The position numbers and the translations under genes were made by a program. This document shows positions 7,806-61,355 of a stretch of DNA of 64,000 nt, piece after piece. The stretch's first letter is position 1. The number at the start of each line of letters is the position of its first letter. A model generated the notes under the pieces. That model saw only the letters and a program-made list of their open reading frames with translations, was not told the DNA's origin and searched no databases. This DNA is from Tetradesmus obliquus (lineage: Eukaryota > Chlorophyta > Chlorophyceae > Sphaeropleales > Scenedesmaceae), in contig CP126196.1 in assembly GCA_030272155.1 (NCBI GenBank), forward strand, positions 3,596,001-3,660,000. The letters run 5' to 3'.

Positions 7806-10800
7806 ATGCTCACGTGCACACAGCAGCAGCAGCAGCAGCAGCGCCAGAGGCTGGCAGCCTGGCTACTGTGCCTGCTGCTGGCTGCTGCCAAATGCTGCGG
7901 GCAGTTCCTACCCTTTGAATGCAAAGGAGCCGGCCCAGCAGCAGCAGTAACAGCCACCACAGGCAACACCAGCAGCAGCAGCAGCAGCAGGCTGGATCCA
8001 GTCTTCAGGCCACCATATCTGCTGGTGGCGCCGGCAGCATACTACATCAAACGGAACCGCCCAGTGCTTGCACGCCGCAATTCACCTGCAGCAGCAACAG
8101 CAGCAGCAGCAGCAGTGACGGCCAAGGAGGAGGCAGGCACTGTGCGGCCTGCAGCCGTGTGCCCCATGGACTCTGCTTTTCAGGTCAAGGGCTTCAGCAT
8201 GTGAGCTGCTGCTGCTGCTGCTGGGATGAGAAATGCACTCTGTGTTGCCCACTTACTTGCAGCCTGGCAGCACTGCTGAGGCCAGCAGATGTCTGGCTGC
8301 AGCAGCTTATCATACGCTGATCACAAATAGGCAGAAGGTGCATTTGGGGAGTAGCAACAGCTGCAGCGCTCCTTGTCAGTGTTGGCATTTGGTAGCTGCA
8401 GCGCTCCTTGTCAGTGTTGGCATTTGGTGTGTCAACCTAACCCCCACACCCTCTTGCAGGATGTCCTGCCGCCTGTTTGTGCGCACCACCATTTTCAACG
8501 ATGCTACTTGTGTCCTAATCACAACCTCACCTGGCCTGACCTCAATCTTCTTATGATTACTTGTGCTACAGGACCTCCTGCCGTCTGTTTGTGCGCACCA
8601 CCATCCTCAATGACAACACATTAACCCTCCCTTCACTTGTTCTCCAACCCAAAACCCCAACAACCCTCCTGCAGGACTTCCTGCCGCCTGTTTTTGTGCA
8701 CCACCATCCCCAACGGCATCAAGTTTTGTGAACCACATCCTCACCTCGTCTGAGCTTCAGCTTTTCGACATTACTTGTGTTGCAGGACTTCCTGCCGCCT
8801 GTCTGTGCGCACAACCATCTTCAACGACAACTCACTAAACCCTCGCTTTCACTTGCTTTTCCAACCCAAAACCCTAAACCCTCCTGCAGGACCTCCTGCG
8901 CCGCCTGTTTATGCGCACCACTTTCCTCAACGACGATACGCTTCCTACCAACAAGTACACCTGGTCTGAGCATCACATGTGTGTGAATGCATGCGCTGCA
9001 GGACCTCCTGCCGCCTGTTTGTGCGCACCACCATCCTGAATGACAACAAGCAGCCGCTCATCTACTACTGCAGCGCCTGGTTCATCTCCCCGCAGCATGT
9101 GGCCACTGCCGGGCACTGCATCGCTGAGGGGCCTGAATACATCGTGGACAGGCAGCAGCCAGGCTTCGTGTGCTGCAGGTAAGCCTACATGTACTGCGGC
9201 TGTTTGTTGTGCTAGAGGTGACTGGGGCAGTGCAGTGGCCACTGCCGGGCACTGCATCGCCGCGGGGCCTGATTATATTGTGGACAAGCAGCAGCCAGGC
9301 TTCGTGTGCTGCAGGTAAGCTTACTTGTACCGCGGCTGTTTGTTGTGCTGAAGGCCCTGTACTTAAGGCCTTGTAGTGGCCACGGCGGGGCACTGCATCG
9401 CTGAGGGGCCTGAGTACATCGTGGACAAGCAGCAGCCAGGCTTCGTGTGCTGCAGGTGAGACCGTGGCTGTTTGTTGTAACATAACATCTGGGCATTCCG
9501 TTTCTGAGGAGAATAATGTGTCAGATGCAAGCAGCAGCAAGGCTTTGTGCGCTGCAGGTAAGCTTACATGTACTGCGGCTGTTTGTTGTGCCAAAAGCCC
9601 TGTCGTGGTTGACTCGGGGCAGTGTAGTGGCCACTGCGGGGCACTGCATTGCTGAGGGGCTTGAGTACATCGAGGACAGGCAGCAGCCAGGCTTTGTGTG
9701 CAGGTATGAACAACCCTGATGGTTTTGATTAAGCAAGGTAGGAAGCAGTAGAAATCAACAGGCTGAAAACAAGTAGTTGGGTTGGCTGCTCATGGAGGCA
9801 TAAATGCTGGCAGCGCCACCCACAGATCACCTGGTCAGGGCACGTAAGCCAAGCCGTGCTGCCAACACCCGCCCTCTGCTGCAATGCTTTCCACGTATGC
9901 CCCTGCTGCCACCGACCTCCCTTCCTCGCAGGTTTGCCGCCAGCGGCAACTGCCTGCCGCGCTACCGCTACTGCCGGACAGTCCTGGGTCATCACTCAGA
10001 TCGCCTGTCATGCTCACACAAGCCAAGCCATGCTGTCGTGACTCGCACACATTCTTGCTCCTGTGCTGCTGCTGCCGCCAACTTCTCCGCTTCGCAGGTT
10101 TGCCGCCAACGGCAACTGCCTGCCCCGCTACCGCTACCGCCTGCAGTCCTGGGTCACAACTCAGGGCTTCCTCGCCAAGCTACCGTCCCGCTCAAACGAC
10201 GGCGCAGTACTCAAAATCGTGCCGCAGTCCCCAAAAGACTTTGTACCACCTATTCCCCAAACTGCATTTGGCGCTTTTGCTGGCAACAGTCCACCAGAAA
10301 AGGCCATATATATGGATGGGTATCCCATGCAGACGCTTGAGGATGGCTGTGGCGAGGTGGATGAGTTGAGAAGGTACCAGACGATGGCCAGCCGCCCGGC
10401 GCAACCGATTGACTCAAGGACGCAGAACGCCACTGCTGTGCAGTACCAGATGTCAGGTGAGCTGAGCAGGCGTAGCACTGTTCAGCAGCAGCAGCAGCAG
10501 CGCTGATGTCTCGCTGGCTTGGTCAGTCTGTTCTTGCTAGGTATAATGTGACAGGTGTGGGGAGGTGGATGAGTTGAGAAGGTACCAGACGATGGCGAGC
10601 CGCCCGGCGCAGCCGATTGACTCGAGGACGCAGAACGCCACTGCTGTGCAGTACCAGATGTCAGGTGGGCTGAGCAGGCGTAGCACTGTTCAGCAGCAGC
10701 AGCAGCAGCAGCAGAATTGATGTTGTGCTGGTTCTGTCAGCCTGGTCTTGCTGGGTTGCTTATTGTCCTGACGAGCTGCTGGCTTCCTGTGTTGTCCATG

Positions 10801-10962
10801 CTAGCTTAGCAAGGCTTGCCAACTGCCTGGCTGGCTGAGTCACCTTTTTTATACACCACGAAGGACTTTCAGTCAGCTTGGCTGCCTGTTTGAAACGGTT
10901 TGTGCGTGCTTTCCGCCAGTGCAACATGTGCTCGTGCATGACTTTACACTAAACCACTTCCG

Positions 10963-11000
<38 letters not shown>

Positions 11001-12995: not shown

Positions 12996-13733
12996 ATGAG
13001 CGGCGCAGGGACAGCGCTGCTGCTGCTAGTGTGTGCAGCAGCAGTAGCTACACCTGCAGCTGCAAAGCGCTCTTCACAGTGCCCTGGAGGCTGCATCATA
13101 GCGTCAGCAGTGCATCCGAAACGAATATGCAAATGCGTGGTACCTCAGTGCAGCGTGCCAGGTGCAGATCAGGCCCTTGCATCTGGCACTGCAGTGATGC
13201 CGGCAGCAGCAGGAGCAGCAGCGGGCTTTCAGCAGCGCAAGCAGCAGCAGCAGCAAGGATTCAGGCCTCCCAGGCTTGCTGGCGTTGACTGCGCCTTTTG
13301 TGACCGGGGGTTCAACACGTATGCAAGGTGAATGGCGTGTGAACTGCACTGAGATACAGCTCAGCCTGCATGCGGCATGTGCTAGCTGTCAATGTACTCG
13401 GGTGTTTCTTGCTGCAGCAGCAGCAATGCTCATGCAACGCCACATGAATTGAGTGCCGCGTATAGTGTGTGTGCGTAAACTCATGCTGCTGCTGCTGCTG
13501 CTGCTGCTGCCGCCTGCAGCTTTGATGACTGCTATGTTGCTGATGTGGCTTTCAAGCCAACAGGCAAGAGCATTCAGCCGGCAGCATACCCAGCACTGAC
13601 TGCCTCGCAGCCAGACAGCGGCGAGGTGTCTGCTGCTCAAGCCAGCTGCCCTCCTGCAGCAGCGCCCGGCTGCCCGGTGAGCAAACGCGTATGAGGGCAG
13701 ATGCTAGCCGGCGGCTGTGCCTGCTGGTGCTGG

Positions 13734-13778
<45 letters not shown>

Positions 13779-15837
13779 CACGTGCCTGCGAGCCAGCTGC
13801 CCTCCTGCAGCAGCACCTGGCTGCCCGTTGAGTTGATTTGTCATCTGCATTGTCCTCCGCCTGGTGCTGCTGTTGCTTGCAGCAACTTCCTCAGTTCACT
13901 GCCAGCAACACGGCTCCCTATGCCCTGCAAGAACCGCTGTGGCTTCTCTTGATGGCTTGCAGGAACCGCCTGATTCGCTTGCATGACCTGCTGGGATGGC
14001 TTGCAGGAACTGCTGGGATGGCTTGCAGGAACTGCTGGGATGGCTTGCATGAGCTGCTGGGGTGGCTTGCATGAACTGCTGGGATGGCTTGCAGGAACTG
14101 CCTGGTTGGCTTGCAGGAACCGCCTGGTTGGCTTGCAGGAACCACCTGGTTGGCTTGCACAGACTGCTGGGGTGGCTTGCAGGAACTGCTGGGTCAACTT
14201 GCAGGAACAGCGAGCCGGCTTGTAGGAACCACCGTCATGACTTGCCTGAAGCCCTACGCCTCTTGTCGCCACTTGCCTCACCTGCTGCTTGCAGGACCAC
14301 TAAGGCTTCACCCGCTGGGAGGCGCTGTGTTGTGTTGGCCAAGCACATGGCACATTCTTTCCAACTGCGTGCAGGGTTGCTCAGGGTTCTGTTGCTGCGT
14401 GTTGCTAGTTGGATTACAGGAACTGCTGGAACTGCTTGTCTGATGCTCTGCCCTATCTGTTCTTCTTCTTTCAACCTGCCTGCAGGACTATTCTGGCTTC
14501 GCCCGCTGGGAGGCGCTGTACGGGTCTGCCACTGCCTCCAGTGATGTGGTCATCAGCAGCAGTGTGGTGCTGCACGGCTGCGCACAACCTGGCGGCTGCG
14601 TGGCGGTTGCCAGCATCACAGTGCTGCCTGGGGCCACAGTGAGTCAAGACAGTGCAGGCTGGCCGGTGTGTTGAGGCAGCAGGTTTTAGGATAACTGGAT
14701 AGTTGATCGGCAGCAAGGGCGGGTTAGTTTGTTGGCTGAGGCGGCAGCGTGGCAGTGGCCAGCATCACAGTGCTGCAGGGTGCCACGGTGAGGCATCAAG
14801 CGGTGGGATAGTTGGTTGATCAATGGCAGCGTGGCAGTGGCCACCTTCACAGTGCTGCAGGGTGCCACGGTGAGAACTCTGATTCAATGACAAACAGCCA
14901 AGCCCTAGCTGCTCTTCACGCTGCGGCTGCCTGGCTGCCTGCTTGCCTGCCCTCAGCTGGCCATAGGTGACAGCGCGCTGCGCCTGGCCTTCAACCGCCT
15001 ACGCATCAACGGCAGCTTTGTCATGGGCAGCCCAGCCTGCCCCATTGCCAGCAGCATCACTGTGACTGTGCCGGGCGGCAATGAGACGTACGGCGTGGAC
15101 AATGCAGGCAGCTACGACGTGCACGGGGTCATGCAGGTTGGTTAGCGGGCAGGCGCAGACTTGTCACTTGCATACTAACTGCCTGCATTAATATAATAAG
15201 ACACATGCCATCATGCAATGCTGCGGCAGCGTACGAGGGACTCTCTATAATCGCAGTGACTGTGTTTCCTGATAATGGTGCCATGTCCCAAATCATGTCA
15301 TGCCGCAACCTGCTGTCTTTGTATTTTCCTGCAGGGCCCCACTTGGACGCGCATCTCGGCCACCGTTGCAGCAGGAAGCAAGGTGCTGCCTCTGCAGGAG
15401 GCGGTGCAGTGGCAGCCAGGAGACAGCATCGTGCTGGTGACCACCACATGGAAGGGTGAGGGGGGGGGGGTTTCAGGGGTGATGCAATTTATGTTTTGTA
15501 GGGCAGTGGACGTGCTGAGCTAGTGCTGGTGTTGCGGCTGTTGTAGTTGACTGCAGTGCATGTGCACTCCAGTGCTGCTGCCTGCCCGTCACCACCCATA
15601 TGGTGTGTTGGAAAAGTGAGGGCGCAGCCGCTGACCTGTGGCATTCTTGGACGGTTGCAAATTTTGTGAATTTCTGCAGCTCAACATGTGAGCTCTTTGC
15701 TTTTGTGCAAAGTGCTTGCGCCTATAGGTGGATCAGAACACTGCTGCTCGGAACACTGCTGCATGCAGGCTGCACAATCAAGCACATACCTGCTGTACGC
15801 TTGTGTTGAGTGTCACTGCTGCCTGCTGCTGCTGCTG

Positions 15838-15870
<33 letters not shown>

Positions 15871-16485
15871 TGCTGCTGCTCCTGCCTTTGCCGCTGCGGC
15901 AGATGAGCTGGTGAACCAGAATGAGGTACTGACAGTTGCAGGCGTCAGCGCTGACGGCCGCAGCATCACCACGCAGCAGCGCGTTCAGTTCAACCACTAC
16001 GGGTGCGGCACGCTGTGCGAGAGGGCTGCAATGATGCTGTGCAGCCTACACACAGATCATGCTTAGCACTAGGCTACATGTTGCTTCAATGGCCTGAAAC
16101 AAGGTGGCTGATGCCATCAAGTTGCTCTGCTGCCCTGCAACGATGCAGCGCTGCAGCGCTGCAGCTTGAGTGCCGATCTGGATTTATTTTGACAGCAGCA
16201 CCATGACACGCCAATATAACTACTACAATGCACGTGTCTCTGTCATTTCACCTGCAGCGGCGAGTACCAGGCTGAGGTGGGCCTGCTGACGAGGCGCATC
16301 CTGTTCACCAGTGACGCTGTCTCAAAAGCAAGCGGCATAGGTGGGTTGAGGGAGATCACAGCAGCAGCAGCAGCAGCAGCAGCTGCTGCTGTGTGTGCTC
16401 ATGAATAGCAAACTGTTTGTCATGCATCACCTGCTTGGTATGCAGTTCATCCGCAACAAGTAAGCGTTCAAGGAGTGCATGACAC

Positions 16486-16525
<40 letters not shown>

Positions 16526-19500
16526 GACTGCTGCCCCTCTCCGTCCTCCCAGGCCCTCACACCACCTCCTTCACTCCCAACATGCGCATCTCTGGTGCTG
16601 CGTTTCAAGCCTGGGGCGCACGCAACAGGCCGGGCCGCTACAGCATCCACTACCACCTGGCGGGCAACGCCCCAGGGGCATTCGTGAACAACGTGGCGAT
16701 CTACAAGTGAGAGGGGGATCGCGTGCTGATCCAACATGGTATTAAATCGCTTGCTTTTGCTATGGGCTGGCAAATATGCTGTCTTGGTCTGGCACTGCTG
16801 AGGTGCATGTTGCAGCAACGCCTGTTTCTGAAGAGCAGCCCAACCGCCACCACACATAATCTTCCTCTCTGCTGCCGCCATTTTGTTTCCTGTTGCCCCA
16901 CCTTCAGCTCCAACTGGCGCTGCATCAGCATCCACGGCACCAACGACGTCCTGCTGTATGGCAACGTGGGCTTCACACCTCTAACATTATCTCTGCTGCC
17001 GTGCTGTTTTTGCTCCCACTTGCAGCTCCAACTGGCGCTGCATCAGCATCCACGGCACCAATGATGTCACCCTATATGGCAATGTGGGCTTCAACATTCC
17101 CGGGCACTGCTACTACTTAGAAGATGGCGTGGAGGAGCGCTGCGTGTTGGAGCGCAACCTGGCGGCGTTTGTGCACCCCATTCAGACAGCGGGCTCGGGC
17201 GGAGGCCAGGCGGTAATTACCTTGGCAATTGATTGATCAATATATTAATCAATTACTTACCTGATTAGGGCACGCTGGCCGGCAAGTGCAATTGACAGCG
17301 TTACATTGAATATGCAGTATCATGCCTGTTGAGCTTGCAACGCTAGAAAGCACCTCTAGAACAAGGAGGCTGTCAGCTTGCAGGCAGATGAATGAGTGTT
17401 TGATAGGGTGACAGCATGCAGCGTTGACGAGTGTGATTAGCACACATGTGCAACAGCTTCAGCTGCGGCTTGGTCAAACAATGGTGAAACTGCTGTCTGG
17501 CTCATAGTTTGACTGGAGTTTGACCGCTGTTGACTGTTGTTTGACCGCAGGGCACCGACAGGTGGCAGAGCCCTGACCTGTTTGACCCCAGTGACTCAGG
17601 GGCCAGCGGCTTCTACTCCCTCAACGCCTACAACACTTGGTGAGGGGGAGCCTGCAGGACACACCTGCTTGCAGGACACAGCTGCTTGCAGGAAACACAT
17701 GCTTGCAGGCACAGCTGCTTGCTGGACACACTGTGTAGCAGCTGATGCAGAACAAGCCACCGTGCAAGCAGCAAGGCTCACACTGCTTCAATTTGCTGAC
17801 TCCCATGCTGGCAGAACCACTCTTCGCAAACAACAAACTTTCTTTGACATACAACAAGCCCTCATGGTCTCACAACACCTGGGACGCTGATTTGCATGCA
17901 TTTGGCTTTGCTTGAAAACATGTCGCTGCTGGCCATCCTGCAGGCTGAACAACGCCGCCTCTTGTTGTGAGCTCTTGCTAGCAACATGACATCGTAATCA
18001 AAGCTGTCTGTGTACCTACCGCTGCAGGCTGAACAATGCCGCCTCTGGTGGCTTTTCTGGCTTCACCTTCCCCCACGCGCCCCGAGCCATCAAGGACCAC
18101 CGCAACATCAAAAAAGCTGATGGCTTCCCCTTTGACCCCAGCCAGCGTCCATTTGTGCTGTTCAAAGGAAATACGGCACACTCCACAGGCTACTTCTGGG
18201 AGCACAACGCAGCCGTGTACATCGGGGGGATGCTCTTCTACAAGACAGACCTGGCAGATGGCCAGGTATGGGGCAGCAGGCTGGTGATGTTTGCTCGATT
18301 TGGATAGTATCTGCTGTGGGTGCATGCTCATGATGCCTGCTGTTGTTTGTTGTAGTACTGCTGCAACGCTGCAATGCCTGCTGTTGTACTGCTCATGTGC
18401 TGCTACTGTGCTTGCAGGTGAAGCTGTTCTACAACAATGGCAGGGGCAGCATCCAGGCTGACCCGCTGTGCCCAGACCCTGACTGGCCAAGCAATGAGGG
18501 CAACAATGATGACTGCTGGGTGGGCTCAGCACGCAGCACAAAGTGAGGAGGACATTGTAACATGTTATGTAACATGTTGCATGTGTTACATGAGAACTTG
18601 CACATGTGCAGTGTGCTGGCAGGACTGCTGGATGGGCTCAGCACGCAGCACAAAGTGAGCAAAATATATTGTTACTAAAGTGTTGCGCAACATTCAATAC
18701 AAGCAAAATTTGACAACAGCCACTAGTTGGTGGCATGTGTCGGCAGCCTTCTACAGCACCCCATGGTGTTTGTTTGATCCACATGACACCGGCCACTTGT
18801 TTGTGGGTGGTGTGAAACCTTTGGCGCAGTTGCAGCGTAACAATTGTCGACACAAATCATCAAGCGCATGTGAGTACTGCTGCTGCCGCTGTTGCCTACT
18901 GCTCCCCTGCAGGGCTACTGACGGCTCTGCTGAAGGCTTCCTGGTGCTGCAGGACACATGAGTGACATTGTTTAACATCTGCTGCTGCTGCTGCTGCTGC
19001 TGCCTCACGCCCCCTGCCTCCTGCAGGACTGATGACGGGGCAGAGGACGACTTCCTGGTGCTGCAGGACACCTAATTGATATCGTTCACACCTGTTGCTG
19101 CTGCTCCTGCTGCTGTTGCTGCTGCCGCCTCACCCCCCTGCCTCCTGCAGGACTGCTGACGGGGCAGGGGACGGCTTTTTGGTTCTGCAGGACACCACGG
19201 CAGCACTCGCCAACGTGGGCGTCACCAGCTGGTGCGTGAGTTGCAATACAGTCGTAGCTTGTGCCTTGAAGTTGGCCTGAGGCTTGATACGGTCCCAGCC
19301 CAGGATGTCTGCATGCCTGACTCTGCTGCAAACGCAGCGCAGCGCAGTGCAGCGCAGTGCAGTGCAGCGCAGTAGTGTCTTCAATGTTTTGGTCTCCACC
19401 GTTTTGGTCTTCATAGCGCGCCCTGCTTTTCTACCTGTCCCTGCAGGGGTGACCGGGTGGAGGTGTACAACCTGCGCGGTTTTGACCTGTCACGTGGGTC

Positions 19501-22500
19501 AGAGTACCTTGGACGCAGCTTCATGAAAGACAGCTTCTTCAGGTGAGGCTGCTGCTGCACTTGAGCCAGCTATTCTCCATGCAAGTTACCACTTTTAGTT
19601 TGCACGTACAAGCAAAGCTTCATGACAGACAGCCTGGGGCAAAGCCTTACATAAGACAACCTCTAGGAATCTTCAGGTGAGGCACACCTGAGATACCTTG
19701 GAATCTTCAGGTGAGGCACACCTGAGATACCTTGGAATCTTCAGGTGAGGCACACCTGAGATACCTTGGAATCTTCAGGTCAGGCACACCTGAGATACCA
19801 TAAAATCTTCAGGTGAGGCACACCTGAGATACCTTGGAATCTTCAGGTCAGGCACACCTGAGATACCTTGGAATCTTCAGGTGAGGCACACCTGAGATAC
19901 CTTGAAATCTTCAGGTGAGGCACACCTGAGATACCTTGAAACTTAGTTTAACTACATGAATCACTCGTTGTTGGTGAGGTGCTGCACATGCTCCCAGCCA
20001 TTGAGTCTAATCAACATCTAATACCACAAGCAAGCAGGAAAGCTGCGCTGTTCCAGCCTGCCTGCTCTTCAAGAACTTCAGTGCGCTGCCGTTGCAGCAT
20101 GTTGATGTTTTGCAGGGTTTTGAATATGTGTTTCTGGTCAGGAAGCAGGCACACTTCAGCACACCACTGCAAACCAAGGGATCACTGGCTGCTTCTCTTC
20201 CTGCTGTGCTGTGCTCTCCTGCTGCTGTGCTTTCCAACAGGGTCAACACCAGCAACAGCCGCAATGGCTGGAGCCAGTGGCCCTTCAGCGCAAAAGAATT
20301 CTACTGGGAAAGCCAGCCCATCAAAGGTAGGCGGCAGCAGCAGCAGAGGCAGCAGCAGCAGCAGCAGCAGCAGCAGCTGACACAGTAGTAGCAGCAGCAG
20401 CGGCAACAGATGCAGCAGCAATGGCAACAGGAGCAGCAGCTCTTGCGCATGTGGCCACTCAGCAGCTGAACTGGCAACTGCACGAGCAGCTGCCTGAAAA
20501 GCAATGCTGCTGGTGCTTTAACACCAAGGAAAACTCGTAGCGACACAGCATGCACCGACATGTGTTTGCCTGCTGGCTGCTGCTGCTGCCCTGCAGGCTT
20601 TGAGTGGTACGACACCACCACCACCACCATCCTGTCCAACATCACCTTTGAAAACTACAAGTACATAAAATATGTGGACGATCCAGAAGACTGGTGGTAC
20701 TGGCAGACGCCGCATGCCTTCAGGATGCTGTCACACTCAGACCAGTTCAAGCCAGGTGGGTGGCGTGTTACTACAACAACTCAAAAAGGAAGAAACACCT
20801 GAACATAATCAAGCTGTACAGCTGTAACCATGTTTAGCATCAAACCCTACTACTTGCCTGAAAGGCTTGCTTTTCCAGCTCAAGTGCCTCTGCTGTTGTT
20901 GCTCTGCTGCTGCTTTCGCAGACAAGACGATGATGGTCACCAAGGGCATCAGCTGCATCAACTGCGACATGGGCAGCTGCAGCGGCGGCAGCTGCAGCGG
21001 GGGCGCCTTCTTCCGAGTAGATGAGACCTACAGGGGCAGCTCCTGGCTCTTCAACTGGTGAGTGGATGAGGCCTACAGGGGGAGCAGCTGGCTCTTCAAC
21101 TGGTGAGTGGATGAGACCTACAGGGGCAGCTCCTGGCTCTTCAACTGGTGAGTGGATGAGACCTACAGGGGCAGCAGCTGGCTCTTCAACTGGTGAGTGG
21201 ATGAGACCTACAGGGGCAGCTCCTGGCTCTTCAACTGGTAAGGCCGGGCGGCGGCAGCAGCAGGAGCAGCAGCAGCAGCATTGACAAGGGGATGAAGCAT
21301 AGCAACTGCATTCCGCATCAGCAACCACAGAGACAAATTTACTTATGCACAGGTCCAACAAATGCTGGAAGTGTTTGCATAGGTAAGCTGGAGTCACCAC
21401 TGAGCCTATATTTACACAAGTACCTGCAAAACGTTTGGCTGTATGTATCCTAAACATAACATGTTCATGTAAAGTAACCACTCCTCACCTGTTTTATGTG
21501 CAGGCTGGACGCTGACGGCAGCGTGGTGCACGCTGTGCAGCTCTCCAAAATGCCCCAGCCCTGCCACATGTCCTTTGACATTTTAATGTGAAAAACGGCT
21601 CCTCACCTGTGTTTTGTGAAGGCTGGACGCTGACGGCAGCGTGGTTCGTGCCGTGCAGCCCTCCAAGCCGTCCGGGCCGCACCTCATGTCCTATACATAA
21701 CAAAGTAAAGTAACCAAACCTTACCTGAGTGTCATGCAGGCTGGATGCTGACGGCAGCGTGGTCCGCCATGTGCACTCCTCAAAGCCTCCCCCCAGCCCT
21801 AACACATTTATGATTTATTGAAGTAACAACTCTCCACATGTGACATGCAGGCTGGACGCTGACGGCAGCATGGTGCGTGCAGCCCTCCAAGCCTCTCTTG
21901 CCCTGTCACATGTCACGACATGTTACCCAAACGTAACAACTCTCCACCCATGCCTGCAGGCTGGACGCTGATGGCAGCATGGTGCGTGCCGCCCAGCCCT
22001 CCAAGCCGCCCGGGCCGTACCTCATCGCCTCGCAGCCCGACTGGTGGCGCCTGGACGAGGCCGCCAGCTGGCGCGAGCCGCGCTTTGGCAACCCCTGGGT
22101 GTCACCCATGCCTGTGGATGAGGCTGCTGCGCGGCTTGAGATGCGTGTGAGGGCAGCAGGGGGGCAGCAGTACACGGTGGGCGCGTTTGATGGCCAGGAC
22201 GTGACGCGGATCGGCTACGTGAGCCAGTTTGGGGATGTGGGCAAGCGCGTGGTGATGACGCGCACCGAGGGCACCACCGGCATGACAGGTGGGCGGGGCA
22301 ACAGGTGGCATGAACAGGTAGCAGTTTTAATATCAAGCCAATAACAAATTCAGTTCAAACTCGAGGTGACACATGAGCGCTGCAGCTCAGACAGGGTCAC
22401 TCAGTCTGCATGCTATGAGCTTTGTGCAGCAGAACACCGTAGCAAAATGGCGGCGTATGCACCAATTCCACCAGGACCCATTATGTGTGTGATAGCTGTT

Positions 22501-22963
22501 CATGGCCCTTGCCTGCAATCATTGCACTGTAGCACATAGATCGCATGCCGACACAGACCGCATGTGTTCACTTGGTCTCACCCGCCGCTGCTGTGCTGCT
22601 GTGCTGCCCAATAACCGCCAGGCAAGTACGGCTGGTACACAGTGTGGAACATGACTTCCAGCGGTTACCACGCCCCCAAGCGGCTGGAGCTCATCCTGTT
22701 CAATGTGCCACGCAACAAGGCCGTGATGTGGGCCAGCTGCTGGCCGCAAGGTGAGTATTACAGGCCTCTTATCATGCGTCAGAACTCTTGCATCCTACAA
22801 ATTACACTGCAGCAGTAGGCTCTCGCCCTCAATTGAACAGGAGTAGGCAGCACAGCAGCTGCCAGGGTTATGTCGCAGCAGAACATTCTGTGTTGCAGCA
22901 GGACATCGGCAATGGGCTGTCACCCACGATTGCTGTTTGGCAGCTGATGCATGCCGCAATGAA

Positions 22964-22995
<32 letters not shown>

Positions 22996-24147
22996 ATCCT
23001 GCAGGCACCACATTCACCATCTCCAAGCTCTTTGAGTGGGCAGAGTGAGTGCGCAGGCTGGCTGAGAAACTGTGTGGTAGCATGCGCTTGGCGCTGCTGT
23101 ATTCCATGAGAAAAGCCTGCCATTGCAGATACCTGTCAGTCAAACAGCCAGCCAGCCCGCTAGCCTGTATGGTTCATACATATCAATATTGCTGTTGGCA
23201 GTGATGCTGTGACAGCAGCAGGCTTGCATTGTCCACCTTATGGTCACTCTCATCACATCTTTGGTTGCGCTCTTTGCTCGTGTATCATCATGTTGTGTGC
23301 CCTGCAGCTGCCACGATGTGGACCCGCTGACTCTCGTAAGCAGCCGCCATATTTGAGGGTGTGTCACTGTTCAAAACCTGACCAAACATCTTTCCTTTTG
23401 TGCCCCGCAGCTGCCAGAACATTGACCCGCTCACTCCCGTGGCCAGCCGCGCCGCGCTGCTAGCCAGTGGCGGCAACAACTTCTGGGTGGATGCCAACAG
23501 CTGCCTGCACCTGAAGCTGACAGACCCTGGCGCGCATTGGAAGTACACTGACAGCTTCCAGAGGGATGGACTGTACATTGAGGAGCCGGTGAGAGGAGGG
23601 GCTGCTACTGCTGCTGCTGTGTTGATGCTGTGCACAGCCACATGGCGGTTATGTGCCGCTGCTGTAGTGCGGATGCGTTTGGGGTTGTTGACTGCCAGCC
23701 AGCAGCACACAGCATATGCTGTTCAACTTGGAATGCGGGTGCTTTGGTAGTGCATCATATGCAAGTGGCAACGCCTTTGACACTTGTGTTACGTGAGTTG
23801 TGTTACAATCTGTTTTACTCATGTTGCCATGCTTGCAGATCCGCTGGTATGACCTGCGTTATGTAATAACCACCAGCATGGCCTGTGCAGACGACTTCTT
23901 CTGCCCACTGCCGGTAAGTCATGTGCAGCATGCTTGAGCAGCTGCTGGCTGCTTAAACCACTCAAGTCAAGTCAGTACGATGCTAACAGGCTGCTCGCCA
24001 GCTTTACTCGCAAATGTACCACACGGAGAGATGCACACGTGCAGTTTGAGCTGTTTGCAGGTGCCTTGCACACATGTGTTTTCAAACACAGCCGCTTACA
24101 TCACACAGCAGCACTGCCGGATTCTGTATTGACTGCGGCATCATCAA

Positions 24148-24209
<62 letters not shown>

Positions 24210-24655: not shown

Positions 24656-24713
<58 letters not shown>

Positions 24714-25281: not shown

Positions 25282-25378
<97 letters not shown>

Positions 25379-43466: not shown

Positions 43467-43501
<35 letters not shown>

Positions 43502-43746: not shown

Positions 43747-43821
<75 letters not shown>

Positions 43822-44436: not shown

Positions 44437-44469
<33 letters not shown>

Positions 44470-47400
44470 AGCAACCAGGAGAATGTGAGCAATGTGCTGC
44501 GGTGGGAGTAGTCAGTCACAGCAGTGCACTGCCAGCCTGAAACTGCTGAAGCCTGAATCCTACCATGTCTTGATTGGGCTGTCGTACACACTGCCGACAG
44601 GCATCACAGCAATCAAGCGACCATGCGAAACGTACACTGTGTTCTTGGTATGAGATAACCATGCATCCGCCCAGGTTTACATTGTGCCAGTCACCTGCAG
44701 CAGGGCTGCTCGGCCCCTCCCGCACGTCCATCAATACTCAGGTGTTGCGTACGCTTGGCTCACTGTGGGACACAATGCAGCTGCCAAACTCAAGAAGTTC
44801 AAAGTGACATCACCTGCAGCAGGGGCTGCTGGGCCCCTCCACCACCCACCATTACACACATGCTGCAGATGCTGGCCTGTGTACTCATCAACATATCAAC
44901 CCTAAAACACCAAACCCCAAACCCTGAAGTGGCGGCACCGGCAGCAGTGGCTGCTGGACCCCTCCACACGCCCATGAATACACACTTGCTGCATCTGCAG
45001 GTGCTGTGCTGTGTATGAGACACACATAAAGTGGCATCACCTGCAGCAGTGGCATCATAAAGTGGCATCACCTGCAGCAGTGGCATCATAAAGTGGCATC
45101 ACCTGCAGCAGTGGCTGCTAGACCCCCTCCATACACCCATCAATCAACAGCCATTACACACGCTTTGCTTCGTGCAAGAAACAATGCAGCTGCCATATAT
45201 ACTATACTCCAAGTGGCACCACCTGCAGCAGGGGCTGCTGGGCCCCCTCCACACGCCCATCCAGGTCACGCGCTCCTCAGGGCCCCGCAGCGCCTTGTGC
45301 CGCTCCAGCGGCAGCATATCCTGCACGCCACACAGCACACAGCACACAGCGTCACACAGATATCAGCTCAACCGCACAATGCAGTGTTCAAGCAATCCAT
45401 GCCGCAAAGCCCCTGGCCCCGCAGCGCTTTGTGCCAGTCCAGCGGCAGCATGTCCTGCACGCCACACAGCACACAGCGTGACAGGACGAGCAGCGTTTCA
45501 ACCTTCCGCGCTGCATGACTCTGGCGTCGGGCTTGTGCCGGGCTTGTGCCGCTCCAGCGGCAGCATGCCCTGCACGCGGCACAGCATGCACCACATGCAT
45601 AAATTGCACGATGCAATGCATGACGCAAGACATCTCAGCCATGGCACTGTCTTGTGCCGCTCCAGCAGCAGCAAGTCCTGCAAGCAGCGCAGCACACAGC
45701 TCACACAGCCACTGCAGCAGCCCAGCCAGTGACAGCCACAGCCTACACCCAGCTCCACACAGCAAACACACACATCTAGACGTCCTCAACACACCTGCGT
45801 AATGCAGCCGCGTGAAGCCAGTCGTTTCAAGAGGCCTGCTAGCAGCAGCCCCAGGCCCACCCAGCTGCAGGCCGGCCCAGGGGCAATGATGAGGTCAGCA
45901 TCACCACACCCAGCCTTGCCTAGATACCCACGCACCTGTGTGATGCAGCCGCGTGCAGCCAGCCGCTCCAAAAGGACAGCCAGCAGAGGCCCCATGCCCA
46001 CCCAGCTACAGGCCGGCCCAGGGGCAGTGATGAGGTCAGCAGCACCATAGCGCTGCCAAACCCCAACATACTTTGAAACCAAGCCTTGCCTAAAACCCCA
46101 CGCACCTGAGTGATGCAGCCGCGTGCAGCCAGCCTCTCAAGCAGCCCTGCCAGCAGCGGCCCCATTCCCACCCAACCGCAGGCCGGCCCAGGCGCAATGA
46201 TGAGGCCGGCGTCACCATAGCGCTGCAAAACCCCGACATTCAACATAACTTCAAACAATGCTTTTTAGTGCAACCACACAACAAAATTCAGACAGCATAC
46301 ATCAGCACACCTGAGTGATGCAGCCACGTGCAGCCAGTCGTTCCAGCAGTCCTGCCAGCAGCGGCCCCATGCCCACCCAGCTGCAGGCTGGCCCAGGCGC
46401 AATGATGAGGTCGGCAGCACTGCTTAGGAACCTTGTCATTTTTCTTACCACAATCACACTGCGCGAAACATACACACCCGCGCAAGTAACAGCCAGCACA
46501 CAACAAGAAAGAATGCATCAGCACACCTGAGTGATGCAGCCACGTGCAGCCAGTCGTTCCAGCAGTCCCGCCATCAGAGGCCCCATGCCCACCCAGCTGC
46601 AGGCCGGCACAGGGGCGATGATCATGTCGGCGTTGCTGCTCACAAACCCTTTCCATTCTACAAACATGCAGCACGCAACAAACACTCACCAACACAATAT
46701 ATAGCCACTACACAGCAGGAAAACATGCATCTGTGTACCTTTGTGATGCAGCCACGTGCAGCCAGTCGTTCCAGCAGTCCTGCCAGCAGCGGCCCCATGC
46801 CCACCCAGCTGCAGGCTGGCCCAGGCGCAATGATGAGGTCAACAGCGCTGCTCACACCCCACAATTAATGTGATCTACAATCATGCATTTTAGTACAAAC
46901 ACACCGTAAAAGCACACAGCATGCATCAGCACACCTGTGTGATGCAGCCCCGTGCAGCAAGTCGTTCCAGCAGTCCCGCCAGCAGCGGCCCCATGCCCAC
47001 CCAGCTGCAGGCCGGCCCTGGTGCAATGATGAGGTCAGCATCGCCGCAGCTCTGCTTGCCGCGCAGGTAGCTGCCCATACAGCGTGCATGCAGCAGGTAT
47101 GTCACCTCATCGCGAGGCTTGCCGGACAGGTGCTGCGATAGCAAGCAGAAGGGAAAGCATAACGTTGTCAGAGCAGTGGCGCAGATGGCTGCCCATGCAG
47201 CGTGCGTGCAGTGCATCACGCGACTTGCGCCTCAGGTGCTGCAGGTACCAGCAACAGGTGGGCGGAGCAGACAAGTCAGGGCAGTGGCGCAGGTAGCTGC
47301 CCATGCAGCGCGCGTGCAGCAGGTGTGTCACCTCAACACGCAGCTTGCCGGACAGGTGCTGCAGGCGGCAAAACAGAAGAAAAGCAAGCAGCGGTCGGAC

Positions 47401-54232: not shown

Positions 54233-56905
54233 ATGCTTTGCACCATACGTGCATGTTCAAGACTGCTGTTGCCGTTCGCGCACGCTAATGGAGTGTTTAT
54301 TCAAACTGCCGTTCCGTCAGCGATGCTCTGCAGCCTCTGCCCCAACAGGGCATTGAACAAGAGCACGTACAGCAGCAGCAAAGGCAGCAGACACATCAGC
54401 AGCAGCTGCAGGCCAACACGTAGCGGTCAACGCCTATCTGCAGCATATTCAACAGCCATGACGGTTAGAGATGTGGAGCAGGAGCCAAAAGCGAAGCCGG
54501 TGACCCTGGTCAGCTTTGGTGAGTTACTTACATAAGTTGTGCTGTCAAGCAGCAGTACCTGCCACAGCAGTTGGGAGTTGATGCCTTCCTAGAAACATCA
54601 TCACGTGGCTGCCATAAATCCACACTCCAGTAGCTTACTGTTGCTTCAACATACAGCCGCTTTGAAGGGTATGACATGTGCCTGGCAGCCATGTCAGGCG
54701 CTGCTTTTCCTCTTCACCAGTACTGCCAGAGTACAGTCTACAGGCAGCTCACAGCTCAGCATGTTTGTCATCTGGAAGATCACTTGCTTACAATAGAATA
54801 TGCTGCATAGGCTTTGCACACCGCCTGTCTTACATCCACCGCCAAGGATGCGAACAGGCTGCTCCCCAATGGCCAGCTCACACCACCTCACACACCAACC
54901 TCCACCTTGGGTTTAGTTTCAGATGTTGACGGCACACTCATCCACTCTATCGGCAAGGATGCCAACAAGCTGCACAAGGAGTGCTTCAGTGCAGGATTAT
55001 AAAAAAATGTTTGGGCTGCACACAAGTTGCACAATTGCCTGCTTTGTTTGACATTGCAGACGTTGACGGCATGCTGATGCATTCAAGTGGCAAGGACGCA
55101 AATACGCTGCACAAGGAGTGCTTTTCAGCAGGATTCAAAGACGTGTTTGGGCTTGACACAAGTTACACATTGCCTGCTTTGTTTGTGCTTGCAGACATCG
55201 ACGGCACGCTGATCCATTCCATTGGCAAGGATGCCAACAAGCTGCACAACGAGTGCTTCAGTGCAGGACAAACGACGTGTGAGAGCTTGCACACCCCTGT
55301 AACAGACCTCTCTCTCTCTCTCAAGTCACAAACTGCCTGCTTTATTTGCAACTGCAGACGTTGATGGCACGCTGATCCATTCCATTGGCAAGGATGCAAA
55401 CAAGCTGCACAAGGAGTGCTTCAGCGCAGGTTTCAAGGAGGTGTTTGGGCTGGACACACACATCGACATCATACCGCACCACGGTGGCACTGACCCGCTG
55501 ATTGCAATCAAGGTGTTGGAGCACTGTGGGGTACCAAAGGCAGAGGTAGGTTTGCTGCTTGCTGTACACATGTGTGCTGTTGATTGTATGCTGCCGTTTG
55601 AGGCTCTCTTGAGAGGTGCCTGGTGTTTAGGGGCTGGACACTCATAACGACATCATCCCTCACCACGGCGGCACTGACCCGCTGATTGCCATCAAAGTGT
55701 TGGAGCACTGCGGGGTACCAAAGGCAGAGGTAGGGTGCGGGGTGCAACGTGCAGCATGCTGTTTTTGTTGTTGTAGCAGAACAGTTGGCAGGGGGATAGA
55801 TGATGATGGTACATTCAAAACAACAGCATCAAATCTTAACATGTAGATAGATAAATAATAAAAACAGCCAAACATTTCACTAAATGATGATAATACTATA
55901 TTCAAGCAAAGGGGGGGGGGGCACTTTCTCCACTGACAGCATCATCATCCCTTTTTGGCTGGCAACTTCAGAACATCTTATATACTATATAAGTTAACTA
56001 CTGCAAATATTCACAGGGGTTCTGAGGTGGTTTTGGGGAGGGGGGATGGGTGGGTGTCTGGGGGCCCACAAACTTTCTTGTCTTGGGGGTCCGAACATTT
56101 CTGCCAGGAGCCCGATGAAGGCAAGAGTGGGCTCATATGAAAGCTTAGGTCATGTCCTGTTGTTTGCACACGTTTTAGTATCCTGGCCATAAATTCCAGA
56201 GGACAACAAGGTGGCAGACAGACGCCGAGACGCGCCGGGGGTGGCGGCAGTAGCAGTACAGCAGAGACATCAGATCGATCATGTGATGTTGCAACCACGC
56301 CAAAGCACGGCTTTCAGGGTCCAGATATGATATAATAGCTATAACATAATATATATGTACTTCTGGGGCCTGACAGCGCACATTTCTGCAATGGGTTGTG
56401 GGGGTGGGTGGGTGTCTAGGGCCCGTCAAGGGTTTTTATGATGATGTCCTACACTTTCTTGCGTGCCCTTCCCCCTGATTCAAGCAAAAAGTATTTTTGG
56501 ATATTAAATCAATAATATCAAGTATACTGAAATTTATTAGAAAATGTATTGATAATCGTATGAATACTTATGTTAAGATTAAAATAATATTAATGACAAT
56601 GTAACACCAAGCCTGCCCAGCATATTTCAACTGCCGCACCTAAACCATCTGACTTAACGCAGGCGCAAGGCAAACTGAAGGAGCTGGAGGCAGCCATGGT
56701 GCGCCATTTTCAGGCGCATGCTGATCGTGCGGGCCTTGGCCTGGAGCTGCTTCCTGGGGTCAAGGCGCTGCTGGAGGCGATGCAGGTGAGCAGGCTTGTG
56801 CAGCTGCTGCTGCTGCTGCTGCTGCTGCTGCAGGCGCGTGGTGACGTGGCGAGCTGCCTGGTGACTGGCAACCTGGAGCCGATACACTGCTGCTGCTGCT
56901 GCTGA

Positions 56906-56944
<39 letters not shown>

Positions 56945-57009
56945 TGCTGCTGCAGGCGCGTGGTGACGTGGCGAGCTGCCTGGTGACTGGCAACCTGGAG
57001 CCGATACAG

Positions 57010-57060
<51 letters not shown>

Positions 57061-57114
57061 AGGCGCGTGGTGACGTGGCGAGCTGCCTTGTGACTGGCAA
57101 CCTGGAGCCGATAC

Positions 57115-57179
<65 letters not shown>

Positions 57180-57324
57180 AGGCGCGTGGTGACGTGGCGA
57201 GCTGCCTGGTGACTGGCAACCTGGAGCCGATCGGCTGGGGCAAGATGGCGGCACTGGGCATCGACGGCCTGTTCAGCAAACCGCTGTAAGTATGCATGCG
57301 CCTGCGGGGAATGCACATGTCCGT

Positions 57325-57375
<51 letters not shown>

Positions 57376-60300
57376 CACCTGCTTGATTCACCTGCCTCTG
57401 ATACAACTCCCCTTGAGTTACATCATATGGTCTGGGTGGACGGAATATGTTGTATGTTTGCATGCTCATATGCTTCCAAGCAATGGTTGCAGAGGTGTGG
57501 GTTGTTTGTGCGGAGGTGGCGCATACAGCCAACTGGCATGCAATTCAGCAGCTGTGAAGGCTACTGCTCTGCAGACGCTGCTGAACAATGATCAGTCTCT
57601 GTACCTGTTCAAGACATCAAGGCTGCTTTGTAAGTCACAAACACGCCAAGGTGGTTGAATCAAAGTCTGAGCTTGTCATCTCTGACTCCGATACAATCAC
57701 TGTGGCGTGTTTGTGACTTACACGGCAGCCTTGATGTCAGGCCTGTCTCCGTTCTTTTCAGATGTGCTTCCACACTGCTGCACATGCTGCTGGGTCAGCG
57801 CTACTGACACACGTTGTACTGATTTAGCAGGCGCAACTATGTTCGTTGGCATTGCTGCACTTTGTTTGCCTACTAGGCAAGATAATATCTATGTGCATGC
57901 TGCTTGTCATGCTGCAGCTTTTGCAGCTAAGGCAGCGACTTCTGCAGCGGCAACACGCAGGCTGACCGGAGCATGCTGTCTTCTATAACCGTCTTCAATC
58001 GTTGCATTCTTGTTGCAGCTTTGGCGGCTGTGATAGCGACTTCTGCAGCAGTGAGAGGCCGTGTCCAGTGTGCTGTGATGTGCTGAATCGTCATTTTTCT
58101 CCATTTTGTCGCAGGTTTGGCGGGTTTGGCAGCGACTTCTGCAGCGGCAACACGCAGGAGATGTGGCGCGACCGTGCCGAGTTTGTGCGGCTGGCAAGGC
58201 AGCGCGCCGCGCAGCAGTATCAAGGTGAGCTCAGTGCCTGGTTCAGGCACTTGCTGATAGCGGTCCAGTCCAGTTTGTGCGGCTGGCGGGGCAGCGCGCG
58301 GTGCAGCATCAAACAAGGTGAGCTCAGTGCCTGATTCAGGTACTTACTGATAGCAGGCCAGTCCAGTTTGTGCGGCTGGCGGGGCAGCACGCTGCGCAGC
58401 AGTATCAAGGTGAGCTGGCCAACGCACAGCGCAGCATCTGCATTGCAGCTTCTCCGCAGCTGAAGGTTGTTTCTCGTGCCTGCTCCCCACCATCACCAGG
58501 GTGGGATGAATGTTTTTTTACTTTTGGTTTTACTTTATTATACCTTCATCTTAAAATTAGCCGGTGGTGCATGCAGACTCGTTGTTGCATTTGTTGGCAA
58601 TGCTCTGGTTGGGCGTGTTTCTCAGGGCTGCCTGTGGTCATGCGCAGCAGCAGCAGCAGACCTGCTCGCATGCAGAACGTTGTCGCGCTGCCAGTACATG
58701 GGCTGCTGTCAGCTGTGATGCCTGTGTATGTTTGGTTTGGTGTGTTGTTTAAGGTGGAATGACACGCAGGGCTGCACTTAGCTTGGTGGGGCGCGTCTTG
58801 CAAGTTCCTCAGGGCGGCCATGTGGTCATGCACAGCAGCAGCAGACTGGCACGCATGCAGAATGTTGTCGCGCTGCCAGTACATGGGCTCCTGTCAGATG
58901 TTATGCCTTTGTATTTTTGGTTTGGTGTGTTTTGTAAGGTGGAATGACAAACAGGGCTGCACTCAGCTTGGTGGGGCACGTCATGATGGCCAGTGATGCA
59001 TAACCACATAGCGTTTCCTTGGTCAATATAGCCGCGCTAGATTTTCTTGTAGCATCATTTCTCAATGTATTAATGTTGTTTGTAATAGCATTTGTCAAGC
59101 AGGCGTGGGCTTGACCTAGCTCCAAGGTGGGCATCATCGCTTGCATGGGCATTACGTCATGATGGCCAGTGATGCATAATCACATAACGTTTCCGTGGTC
59201 AATATAGCCGCGCTAGATGTTCTTGTAGCATCATTTCTCATTGTAAAAATGTTGTTTGTAATAGCATTTGTCAAGCAGGCGTGGGCTTGAACTAGCTCCA
59301 AGGTGGGCATCATCGCTTGCATGGGCATTACTTCATGATCGCCAGTGCTGCATAATCACATAACGTTTCCGTGGTCAATATAGCCGCGCTAGATGTTCTT
59401 GTAGCATCATTTCTCATTGTAAAAATGTTGTTTGTAATAGCATTTGTCAAGCAGGCGTGGGCTTGAACTAGCTCCAAGGTGGGCATCATCGCTTGCATGG
59501 GCATTACTTCATGATGGCCAGTGCTGCATAATCACATAACGTTTCCGTGGTCAATATAGCCGCGCTAGATGTTCTTGTAGCATCATTTCTCATTGTATCA
59601 ATGTTGTTTGTAATAGCACTAGTCAAGCAGGCGTGTGCTTGACCCAGCTCCAAGGTGGGCATCATTCGTTGCATGGGCATTACGTCATGATGGCCAGTGC
59701 TGCATAATCACATAACGTTTTCTTGATCAATATAGCCGCGCCAGATTTTCTTGTAGCATCATTTTTGATCGCATGTTTGGTTTGGTGTGTTTTTTCAGAT
59801 GGAATGACAAGCAGGGCTGCTCACAGCTGTGTTGGGCATGTGCTGCATGTTTTTCAGGGCGACCCTGCGGGTAAACTGACGGGTGTAACATTACGTTACA
59901 CTGGGGGCGTGTGCAGCAGCGCACCGGCACGCATGCAGAACGTTGATGCGGCCAGTACATTTGCTGCCATCAGCTGTGGTGCCTCTGTATGTTTGGTTTG
60001 ATGTTGTTTGTAAGACGGTATGCCGCCGCTGCCACTGCAAGTGGTGTGCCAGCCGATTTTCATGTAGGTGACACCCTCAGGGACATAATGGTGCTGCTCT
60101 GACACCCATGCTGCTGCTGCTGCCGCCGCTGCTGCTGCTGCCGCTGCTGCTGGTGCTGCTGCTGCTGCTGCTGCTGGTGCTGCTGCTGCTGCCGCTGCTG
60201 CTGGTGCTGCTGCTGATGTTGCTGCTGCTGCTGCCGCTGCTGCCGCTGCTTCAGGTGGTGTGAGAGCCGCCTTCCATGCAGGAGATACGCCCATGGACAT

Positions 60301-61045
60301 ACAAGTGCTTTCCTCAAACCCTATGCTGCTGCTGCTGCTGCTGCTGCCCGCTGCTTCTGCTGCTGCCGCTGCCACTGCAGGTGGTGTTCGAGCCGCGTTT
60401 TCATGTAGGTGACACCCTCAGGGACATAATGGTGCTGCTCTGACACCCCTTGCTGTTGCTACTGCAGGTGGTGTGCGAGCCGCTTTTCATGTAGGAGACA
60501 CCCCCATGGACATAATGGTGCTGCTCTGACACCCCTTGCTGTTGCTGCTGCAGGTGGTGTGCGAGCCGCTTTTTCATGTAGGAGACACCCCCATGGACAT
60601 AATGGTGCTGCTCTGACACCCCTTGCTGTTGCTACTGCAGGTGGTGTGCGAGCCGCTTTTCATGTAGGAGACACCCCCATGGACATAATGGTGCTGCTCT
60701 GACACCTCTTGCTGTTGCTGCTGCAGGTGGTGTGCGAGCCGCTTTTCATGTAGGAGATACCCCCATGGACATAATGGTGCTGCTCTGACACCCCTGGCTG
60801 TTGCTGCTGCTGCTGCTTGTCCTGCTGCTGCAGGTGGTGTACCAGCTGCCTTTCATGTAGGAGACACCCCCATGGATATACAAGCAGCGCTGGCAGCGGG
60901 CTGTGTGGCAGTGGGTGTCACAACAGGTGTGTACAGCAGGCAGCAGCTAGAGGCTGCTGGTGAAGGTGCTGCTGCTGGCAGGCTGGTGGTGCTGGACAGC
61001 TTAGAAGATGTTGATGCGGTGCTAAAGGTGCTGCAACTGGAGTAA
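54233..61045 (+). CDS. Plant-type HAD-superfamily hydrolase (phosphoglycolate phosphatase-like), probably plastid
   Basis: Six exons close in frame: 54233-54518, 55358-55545, 56663-56785, 57182-57285, 58115-58224, 60834-61045 (340 residues, TAA). Met at 54323 is an alternative start (310 residues). Either way the first 60-90 residues are rich in Ser, Arg and Thr with few acidic residues, like a plastid transit peptide. HAD motif I is split over the first junction (VSF/DVDGTLIHS, nucleophile Asp). The cap carries THIDIIPHHGGTDPL and motif II is CLVTGNLEPIGWGK. Then come FGGFGSDF and motif IV HVGDTPMDIQAALAAGC. The order and spacing match plant HAD phosphatases. It should hydrolyse a small phosphate ester; the substrate cannot be read from sequence. 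Introns 1-5 carry about 20 exon echoes, a 176-bp satellite and an AT-rich block, so the coding part is only about 15% of the locus. Confidence 0.82.
54915..55265 (+). repeat. Acceptor-side echo array of HAD exon 2 (3 copies)
   Basis: Copies begin at about 54917, 55058 and 55195 (140 bp apart, then 137); the real exon starts at 55358. Each keeps a CAG-type acceptor and the catalytic DxDGTL/DVDGML motif followed by GKDANKLHKECFSAG. None ends in a usable donor, so none is a complete alternative exon. Confidence 0.92.
55625..55737 (+). repeat. Donor-side echo of HAD exon 2
   Basis: About 105 bp of the exon-2 end (coding DIIPHHGGTDPLIAIKVLEH through AEG) plus the GTAGG donor are repeated after the real donor at 55546. 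The copy is close to identical. Confidence 0.9.
55790..56645. other. AT-rich, G-run-containing block in HAD intron 2
   Basis: Base composition shifts abruptly here. There is an AT-rich stretch near 55835-55910, an 11-G run at 55911-55921, two copies of a GGGTGGGTGTCTRGGGCCC motif (about 56046-56070 and 56405-56430), and a strongly AT-rich stretch at 56480-56600. No coding capacity is seen. An inserted non-autonomous element is possible, but I could not find clear terminal repeats. Confidence 0.5.
56805..57180 (+). repeat. Acceptor-side echo array of HAD exon 4 with (CTG)n spacers (3 copies)
   Basis: Three copies of CAG|GCGCGTGGTGACGTGGC... through CAACCTGGAGCCGATAC start at about 56833, 56955 and 57061; the real exon starts at 57182. 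Each copy stops at the same point (GAGCCGATAC) and runs into a new (CTG)n tract of up to 20 units, which ends in the next acceptor CAG. The unit is therefore [exon start + CTG tract]. Confidence 0.93.
57324..57376 (+). repeat. (CTGC)13 tetranucleotide tract
   Basis: About 13 uninterrupted CTGC units lie about 40 bp after the donor of HAD exon 4. Confidence 0.92.
57915..58415 (+). repeat. Echoes flanking HAD exon 5 (2 acceptor, 2 donor)
   Basis: Acceptor-side copies (CAGCGACTTCTGCAGCGGCA-like) lie near 57920-57960 and 58018-58055. Donor-side copies (TTTGTGCGGCTGGC...GTGAGC) lie at about 58268-58325 and 58363-58415. The real exon is 58115-58224. Confidence 0.88.
58600..58960 (+). repeat. Duplicated intron segment in HAD intron 5 (2 copies, distant third)
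   Basis: A segment of about 180 bp holding CATGCAGAACGTTGTCGCGC and TACATGGGCTGCTGTCAG-like sequence occurs at about 58610-58760 and 58790-58950, with a degraded third copy at about 59800-60020. It contains CTCAGGG acceptor-like sites, but no reading joins the flanking exons, so I treat it as intron. Confidence 0.8.
58981..59765. repeat. 176-bp satellite, about 4.4 copies
   Basis: Units beginning TCATGATGGCCAGTG start at 58981, 59157, 59333, 59509 and 59685, exactly 176 bp apart each time, with few substitutions. The sequence is more AT-rich than its surroundings and unrelated to any exon here. It lies inside HAD intron 5. Confidence 0.95.
60045..60800 (+). repeat. Acceptor-side echo array of HAD exon 6 (7 copies)
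   Basis: Copies of [GTGGTGTGCGAGCCGCTTTT...GTAGGAGACACCCCCATGGA], coding a HVGDTPMD-like motif, lie near 60040, 60252, 60379, 60465, 60554, 60640 and 60726; the real exon starts at 60834. The later ones repeat every 86-90 bp and carry their own TGCAG acceptor. A CTG/CCG-rich tract (60110-60250) separates the first two. Confidence 0.92.
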
Positions 61046-61059
61046 ATATAATTGCGTGA

Positions 61060-61355
61060 TAGCAGGCTGGTTGTGCTGAACAGCTTAGAAGGTGTTGATG
61101 CAGTGCTGAATGGGCTGCAGCCAGAATAAGAAATGTTGCACGTGACACCAAGCCATGATTAGCGGCCGGTGGTGCTGGACAGCTTAGAAGAAATAGATCA
61201 GGTGCTGAAGGTGCTGCAGCTGGAGTAGAACATGTATCTTGCAAGGTTACATTTACTGCGTGACATCACGATCAATCACTTGGCGGCTGGTGGTGCTGGA
61301 CAGCTTAGCAGATGTTGATGTGGTGCTAACAGTGCTGCAGCTGGAGTGATGTTGA
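61060..61355 (+). repeat. Post-stop echoes of the HAD terminal exon (3 copies)
   Basis: Three copies of the last 60-70 bp of the coding sequence (coding LVVLDSLEDVDAVLKVLQLE and stop) follow the real end at 61045, at about 61063-61129, 61164-61230 and 61284-61350. They end in TAA, TAG and TGA; the genuine gene uses TAA. Confidence 0.9.

Follow-up and report, generated by a model that had tools for sequence, protein, structure and literature searches.

Probable intron enlargement by small tandem duplication in Tetradesmus obliquus, at high density in some genes

When introns of unrelated genes carry partial copies of the exons that flank them, the first question is what was being duplicated: splice junctions as such, or DNA in general, with the introns as the place where the products persist? 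The question is raised by a 64,000-bp stretch of the genome of the green alga Tetradesmus obliquus (C6:3596001-3660000; hereafter, the window), which belongs to an assembly of 104.66 Mb in 17 contigs. Here we argue, with a probability of roughly 0.57, for general small tandem duplication that is tolerated where splicing removes the extra copy or where this copy falls past a stop codon.

Self-comparison of the window by BLAST at E 1e-6 yields 128 direct repeat pairs and 0 inverted ones. The members of 127 of these pairs are less than 3 kb apart, and the sole pair beyond 3 kb joins CTG-rich stretches. With the first 60 kb of the window cut in 10-kb pieces and E set to 1e-5, 134 direct and 2 inverted pairs are obtained; order-1 Markov resamples of all 26 10-kb segments (those of the window and those of the genomic sample considered below) give 0 pairs at this threshold. 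Such a direct, local, head-to-tail arrangement of copies is what marks intron enlargement or gain by tandem duplication. Introners and transposable elements were considered and rejected, as similar elements at many unlinked loci were not encountered, 1 of the 128 window pairs reaching beyond 3 kb; a genome-wide search with one array (60370-60810) returned 3 matches, all local. The period of the window arrays has a median of 135 (49 arrays). The window is also rich in CTG/CAG trinucleotide tracts, which occur in introns, in coding poly-Q stretches and beside acceptors, and it contains a 12-bp tandem repeat, GAACAGGACATG, in 13.5 copies (62513-62671). Two adjacent predicted genes resemble trypsin-type proteases, perhaps owing to a tandem gene duplication: the one at 2449-4410 matches PF00089, and the one at 8038-11159 is assigned by resemblance only.

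The genes and arrays are listed in Table 1. The TFB1-like model is a single open spliced frame through ten exons, with a match to the BSD domain PF03909; it is 56% identical, over 74% of the query, to P0001, a relative's protein from EukProt, which covers the last eight exons and lacks the copies. The 25 exons of the G8 model reproduce P0003 exactly, P0003 being the locus's own annotation and hence not independent; P0004, a Scenedesmus sp. protein (69% identity), aligns to 21 of these exons, and both proteins are free of copies. Judging from P0001, P0003 and P0004, splicing would use the exon-proximal site. The polymerase homologue P0034 carries PF14792 and PF14791. The TFB1 array at 30853..31665 comprises, by eye, one truncated copy in addition to five scored ones. 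As for the copies past stop codons, the duplicated piece of the last TFB1 exon stops 42 bp short of the end of the coding sequence, and in each of the HAD coding-end copies the corresponding position is occupied by a stop codon (TAA, TAG, TGA; by eye). The gene finder took two of the TFB1 intronic copies for exons.

Table 1. Gene models, arrays and copies, in positions of the window
Feature	Position	Strand	Description
G8/CEMIP-like gene OEZ86_004028	13197..25754	+	25 exons, 18 exon-edge copies
Donor-type array, 3' edge of G8 exon 20922-21057	21015..21242	+	45-bp unit, four copies
Acceptor-type array, upstream of G8 exon 21960-22288	21448..22025	+	period ~119, three scored copies
TFB1-like gene (BSD domain)	28431..35484	+	10 exons, 20 exon-edge copies
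Acceptor-type array, upstream of TFB1 exon 29586-29760	29188..29651	+	three copies
Donor-type array, downstream of TFB1 exon 30217-30324	30256..30826	+	period ~140
Acceptor-type array, upstream of TFB1 exon 31593-31803	30853..31665	+	period ~132
Copy of 35341-35442 (piece of last TFB1 exon)	35603..35704	+	past stop codon
DNA polymerase beta-like gene, last four modelled exons	43279..47132	-	14 copies
Polymerase exons	46935-47132, 45223-45320, 44345-44434, 43279-43735	-	single frame; homologue P0034
Donor-type array: polymerase exon 46935-47132, with its 3' edge copied six times downstream	45786..47048	-	
HAD-like hydrolase gene	54458..61045	+	6 exons, HAD-type Pfam matches, 17 copies
Intron-only array	58978..59764	+	176-bp unit, 4.5 copies, ~95% alike
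Acceptor-type array, upstream of HAD exon 60834-61045	60021..60880	+	seven scored copies
HAD coding end and three copies	60976..61347	+	past stop codon, without splice junction

For a census, each exon edge was compared with the adjoining intron, and a match of at least 24 bp reaching to within 8 bp of the exon end was counted as a copy. The genes covered were G8, TFB1, HAD and the end of the polymerase gene, together with kinesins elsewhere in the genome; protease 2 was left out. This exon-edge search found 80 copies at 33 of the 192 junctions of 96 introns, 69 of them in the four window genes and 11 in the kinesins. The sequence-only reading had placed such copies at most introns of five unrelated genes. 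That is so for TFB1 (7 of 9 introns), HAD (5/5) and the polymerase (3/3) but not for G8 (8/24); over the four genes, 23 of 41 introns contain such copies, and among the kinesins 3 of 55. By a strict self-BLAST criterion the counts become 4/55 for kinesin, 6/24 for G8 and 6/9 for TFB1 introns, as compared to 3, 8 and 7 in the edge search. What the same reading said of the copies themselves agrees with the census. Successive copies are mostly spaced by 90-220 bp (67 of 80; median 128 bp, quartiles 112 and 151), and most keep the GT or AG (72 of 80, namely 27/30 donor and 45/50 acceptor copies). The copies were also said to lie always on one side, acceptor-type upstream and donor-type downstream of their exon, and at the 66 internal exons checked there were 0 edge copies on the wrong side; because tandem geometry dictates the side, this regularity is no separate evidence.

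Are the junctions then preferred? The proposal of tandem duplications that span splice junctions and enlarge introns is supported. A unit that crosses the exon-intron boundary, another mark of intron enlargement or gain, is found in 39 of 44 arrays, one TFB1 duplication being entered as two overlapping rows among the 44; 19.7 (sd 3.2) such arrays would be expected upon uniform placement of units with the observed periods within introns or over their edges, and 5 of the 44 are confined to introns. This excess, along with several copies whose likeness to the exon runs as far as the donor and continues for only ~5-13 bp of intron (by eye), speaks for a duplication aimed at exon edges, for instance via a splicing- or transcription-linked break or an RNA-templated step, by which copies would start and stop at splice sites. 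Nevertheless, we regard aiming of this kind as rather improbable, one reason being how copies are detected. With the intron flank instead of the exon edge as the query, 10 copies are found, 9 of which are shared with the 80 found by the edge; this query masked CTG tracts, and nine copies in two arrays were missed although their intron sides match well. The intron half of a duplicate evidently fades sooner, so that the excess at junctions is inflated by detection: by our arithmetic, ~38.6 of the 44 arrays would be expected to span a junction if intron-only arrays are detectable at 9/80, and ~34.5 if the nine CTG-flanked copies are added (18/80). Thus, the junction excess is mostly, perhaps wholly, a detection bias, with a small remainder possible at 18/80. 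Aimed duplication is further at odds with the copies past stop codons, with the intron-only arrays, and with an equal period in stretches that were picked without regard to genes (see below). For most of the excess, then, no aimed duplication has to be invoked. Microhomology of the CAG/CTG type at the inner breakpoints was considered as well and rejected, as its frequency, 18% compared with a background of 25%, shows no enrichment.

The general process should be visible outside the window. We sampled 20 stretches of 10 kb at fixed, not random, positions, namely, 1.0 Mb on C1-C16 and 2.5 Mb on C1-C4, so that 16 of the 17 contigs were covered. Direct repeats less than 1 kb apart are present in 17 of the 20 stretches, with 139 direct pairs at this distance versus 2 inverted pairs in the 200 kb; they cover 12.7% of the sample bases, from 0 to 59% per stretch, versus 24% of the first 60 kb of the window. 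The median period, 134 (75 arrays), matches that of the window. In the stretch with the 59% coverage (L019), 14 more pairs lie 1-5 kb apart.

Exon-edge copies as such are sparser outside the window. Gene finding on the 20 stretches gave 24 usable predicted introns, a small sample, of which 3 have copies; exon edges and intron flanks here retrieve equal numbers, 3 and 3, which tells against our reading. Of 31 kinesin loci fetched, 25 supplied the 55 introns; their models were built on Pfam matches and splice signals, and loci without a confident model were dropped. Of the 34 clusters of kinesin matches, three that span 3-8 kb were left out, and one on C2 (4.4 kb) was kept, its array having been seen already. 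This locus (L029), fetched with the array known beforehand, supplies two of the three copy-bearing kinesin introns and four of the seven kinesin arrays. In its gene, HMM positions ~263-289 are repeated six times upstream of the exon, as acceptor-type copies. At the level of DNA (C2:7430565-7435153), these six near-identical copies are separated by CTG tracts, and one reading frame stays open throughout the array. For the DEAD-box family, with 32 of 136 candidates scored, there were 36 matches, and no partial copies were seen by eye within 2 kb. Of the genome-wide process surmised from the window, the part that concerns small direct duplications in general is supported, and the part that would make it specific to junctions finds no such support, given the copies past stops, the intron-only arrays and the detection bias. 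The high density of copies is local or gene-dependent, as the counts for the kinesins and the predicted sample introns indicate.

In a few copies, 28-50 bp agree with the exon edge letter for letter. For these, and because we judge from the assembly alone, an assembly artefact comes to mind; it is hardly credible, as most copies differ from the exon, at up to about a quarter of the sites and with copy-specific changes, and as like arrays occur on other contigs. Mismatches between copy and exon affect codon positions 1, 2 and 3 at 5.9, 5.6 and 20.4%. In the codon counts, from which 12 of the 80 copies were excluded as gapped, the pooled copy-versus-exon omega is 0.23, or 0.28 without CpG sites, and for the most diverged copy of each junction it is 0.28; a bootstrap over junctions puts P(omega >=0.5) at 0.0008; in-frame stops are present in 2 of the 68 ungapped copies, compared with 8.4 expected if neutral. 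The pooled value was abandoned as proof of selection on the copies, one exon change being counted in it once per copy. Counting per branch, with each clean singleton taken once, at the 20 junctions that have two or more ungapped copies, gives 87 N and 61 S for the copies (omega 0.52, below neutral at p = 2e-4) versus 10 N and 27 S for the real exon (omega 0.14; Fisher p = 8e-4 against the copies). Thus, coding constraint is relaxed in the copies and kept in the exon. By our reasoning, serial copying from a constrained exon can yield an omega of 0.5-1 without selection on the copies, and therefore neutrality of the copies stands. A test of the mismatches for 3-periodicity that requires no gene model gives z 3.5 for 61 blocks of the sample (4/2000 shuffles) and z 3.1 for 56 blocks of the window (3/2000), values to which a coding repeat in the sample (L022) adds, as may other repeats with coding sequence in both copies. 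The repeat in question, at L022:7844-8314, is a 357-bp local block in which a single codon phase takes 18 of the 21 mismatches; it is probably a tandem repeat of coding sequence.

The retained splice dinucleotides, splice-site scores that equal or exceed that of the real site in 44 of the 80 copies, and an omega below 1 could all be taken as signs that the copies are in use as alternative splice sites or as exons under selection of their own. We consider this very unlikely: the copies possess neither a partner site at the inner edge nor a clear frame signal, and their omega is far above that of the real exon. The 72 retained dinucleotides compare with the 71.1 that would remain had they changed as codon positions 1 and 2 do. 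Cassette exons, specifically, were rejected, as donor-like sites are found at the inner edge of 9 of 50 acceptor copies (background 24%) and acceptor-like ones at that of 22 of 30 donor copies (background 67%), and as the lengths modulo 3 (5/1/3 and 9/6/7) show no clear preference.

A more serious alternative follows from comparing the copies with each other. Pooled over arrays, the exon-derived parts differ by 0.108 substitutions per site and the spacers by 0.287, the former being lower in 11 of 11 arrays; indels amount to 0.54 and 3.30 per 100 bp, respectively, and are fewer in the exon parts of 10 of the 11. That the exon parts diverge more slowly even between copies counts against simple neutral duplicates, and suggests ongoing exchange between the copies and the true exon edge. 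The corresponding explanation, unequal exchange or gene conversion between exon edge and intronic copies while the spacers drift, would also accommodate the 80 copies found by exon edge against 10 by intron flank, 9 of them common, the pooled and most-diverged omega values, the paucity of in-frame stops, the retained GT and AG, and the stop codon kept in each of the three HAD coding-end copies. We nevertheless rate it as a tentative and, on balance, unlikely account, since the omega of the copies rises to 0.52 once counted per branch, within the range that serial copying alone can reach, and since the PHI test for recombination, with enough sites in 3 of 12 arrays, is not significant in any of them (p 0.60, 0.33, 0.59). 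The divergence gap itself has to be read with care: the copies were picked by exon similarity, which would account for part of the gap; local GC accounts for about a factor of 1.5; and in 4 of the 11 arrays the spacers have diverged to about the level seen between unrelated introns (0.413-0.485 versus 0.449), the ratio of spacer to exon-part divergence in the other seven being 1.8 to 4.2. As regards the origin of the copies, exchange is compatible with general small duplication.

We place these arrays, accordingly, within a known kind of event, the enlargement of introns by small tandem duplication, which reaches a high density in some genes. The AGGT model (Rogers 1989) and the case of ATP2A1, as cited elsewhere, likewise involve a head-to-tail copy in which the 3' end of an intron is joined to the 5' end of the exon that follows, and leave the protein unchanged if the extra copy is spliced out. 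That event creates one new intron, whereas the introns of T. obliquus appear to have been enlarged, often in several rounds, and involve donors as well as acceptors, plus a copied coding end. Small tandem duplications by end joining at staggered breaks, which may stem from nearby nicks in opposite strands, are, according to PMC8355091, the commonest short (<100 bp) insertions in the human genome. Those described there and the copies in T. obliquus are alike in being short, direct and head-to-tail; the latter differ in their unit of 100-150 bp and in serial expansion. Minisatellites and other tandem repeat arrays are head-to-tail as well, and the copies in T. obliquus are spaced by 45-284 bp; unlike minisatellites, the junction arrays are anchored at one end in a coding exon, and their exon-derived parts do not diverge at the pace of their spacers. 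The titles and abstract openings retrieved from the literature provided no account of such arrays in Tetradesmus, and the word intron is absent from the main text of PMC7590803 and PMC7955037.

Taken together, these data favor the following scenario. Small direct duplications, typically with a unit of 100-150 bp, would arise frequently in T. obliquus and mostly regardless of gene structure; as to the chemistry, end joining at staggered breaks is our guess. Those within coding exons would be removed by selection, and those in introns, over a splice junction or over a coding end would survive, since use of the exon-proximal splice site (or of the first stop) leaves the product as it should be. 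The copies would be spliced out, and the introns would enlarge stepwise. Junction-spanning arrays would dominate the view because exon-derived similarity outlasts intron-derived similarity.

Stepwise intron growth is usually argued from single cases. Here many cases are found in one genome, which makes it feasible to count how often it happens, with what unit size, and what becomes of decoy splice sites. For annotation, there is a warning that gene finders may read intronic copies as exons. If the exchange reading is true, intronic copies would feed synonymous evolution at exon edges. A bolder version of it, to which we assign a lower probability still, is that exon edges are dynamic pools in which the working edge and its copies in the intron go on taking each other's place through unequal exchange; if so, the intron would store spare, near-coding exon ends, as well as stop-codon ends, that would be purged once working.
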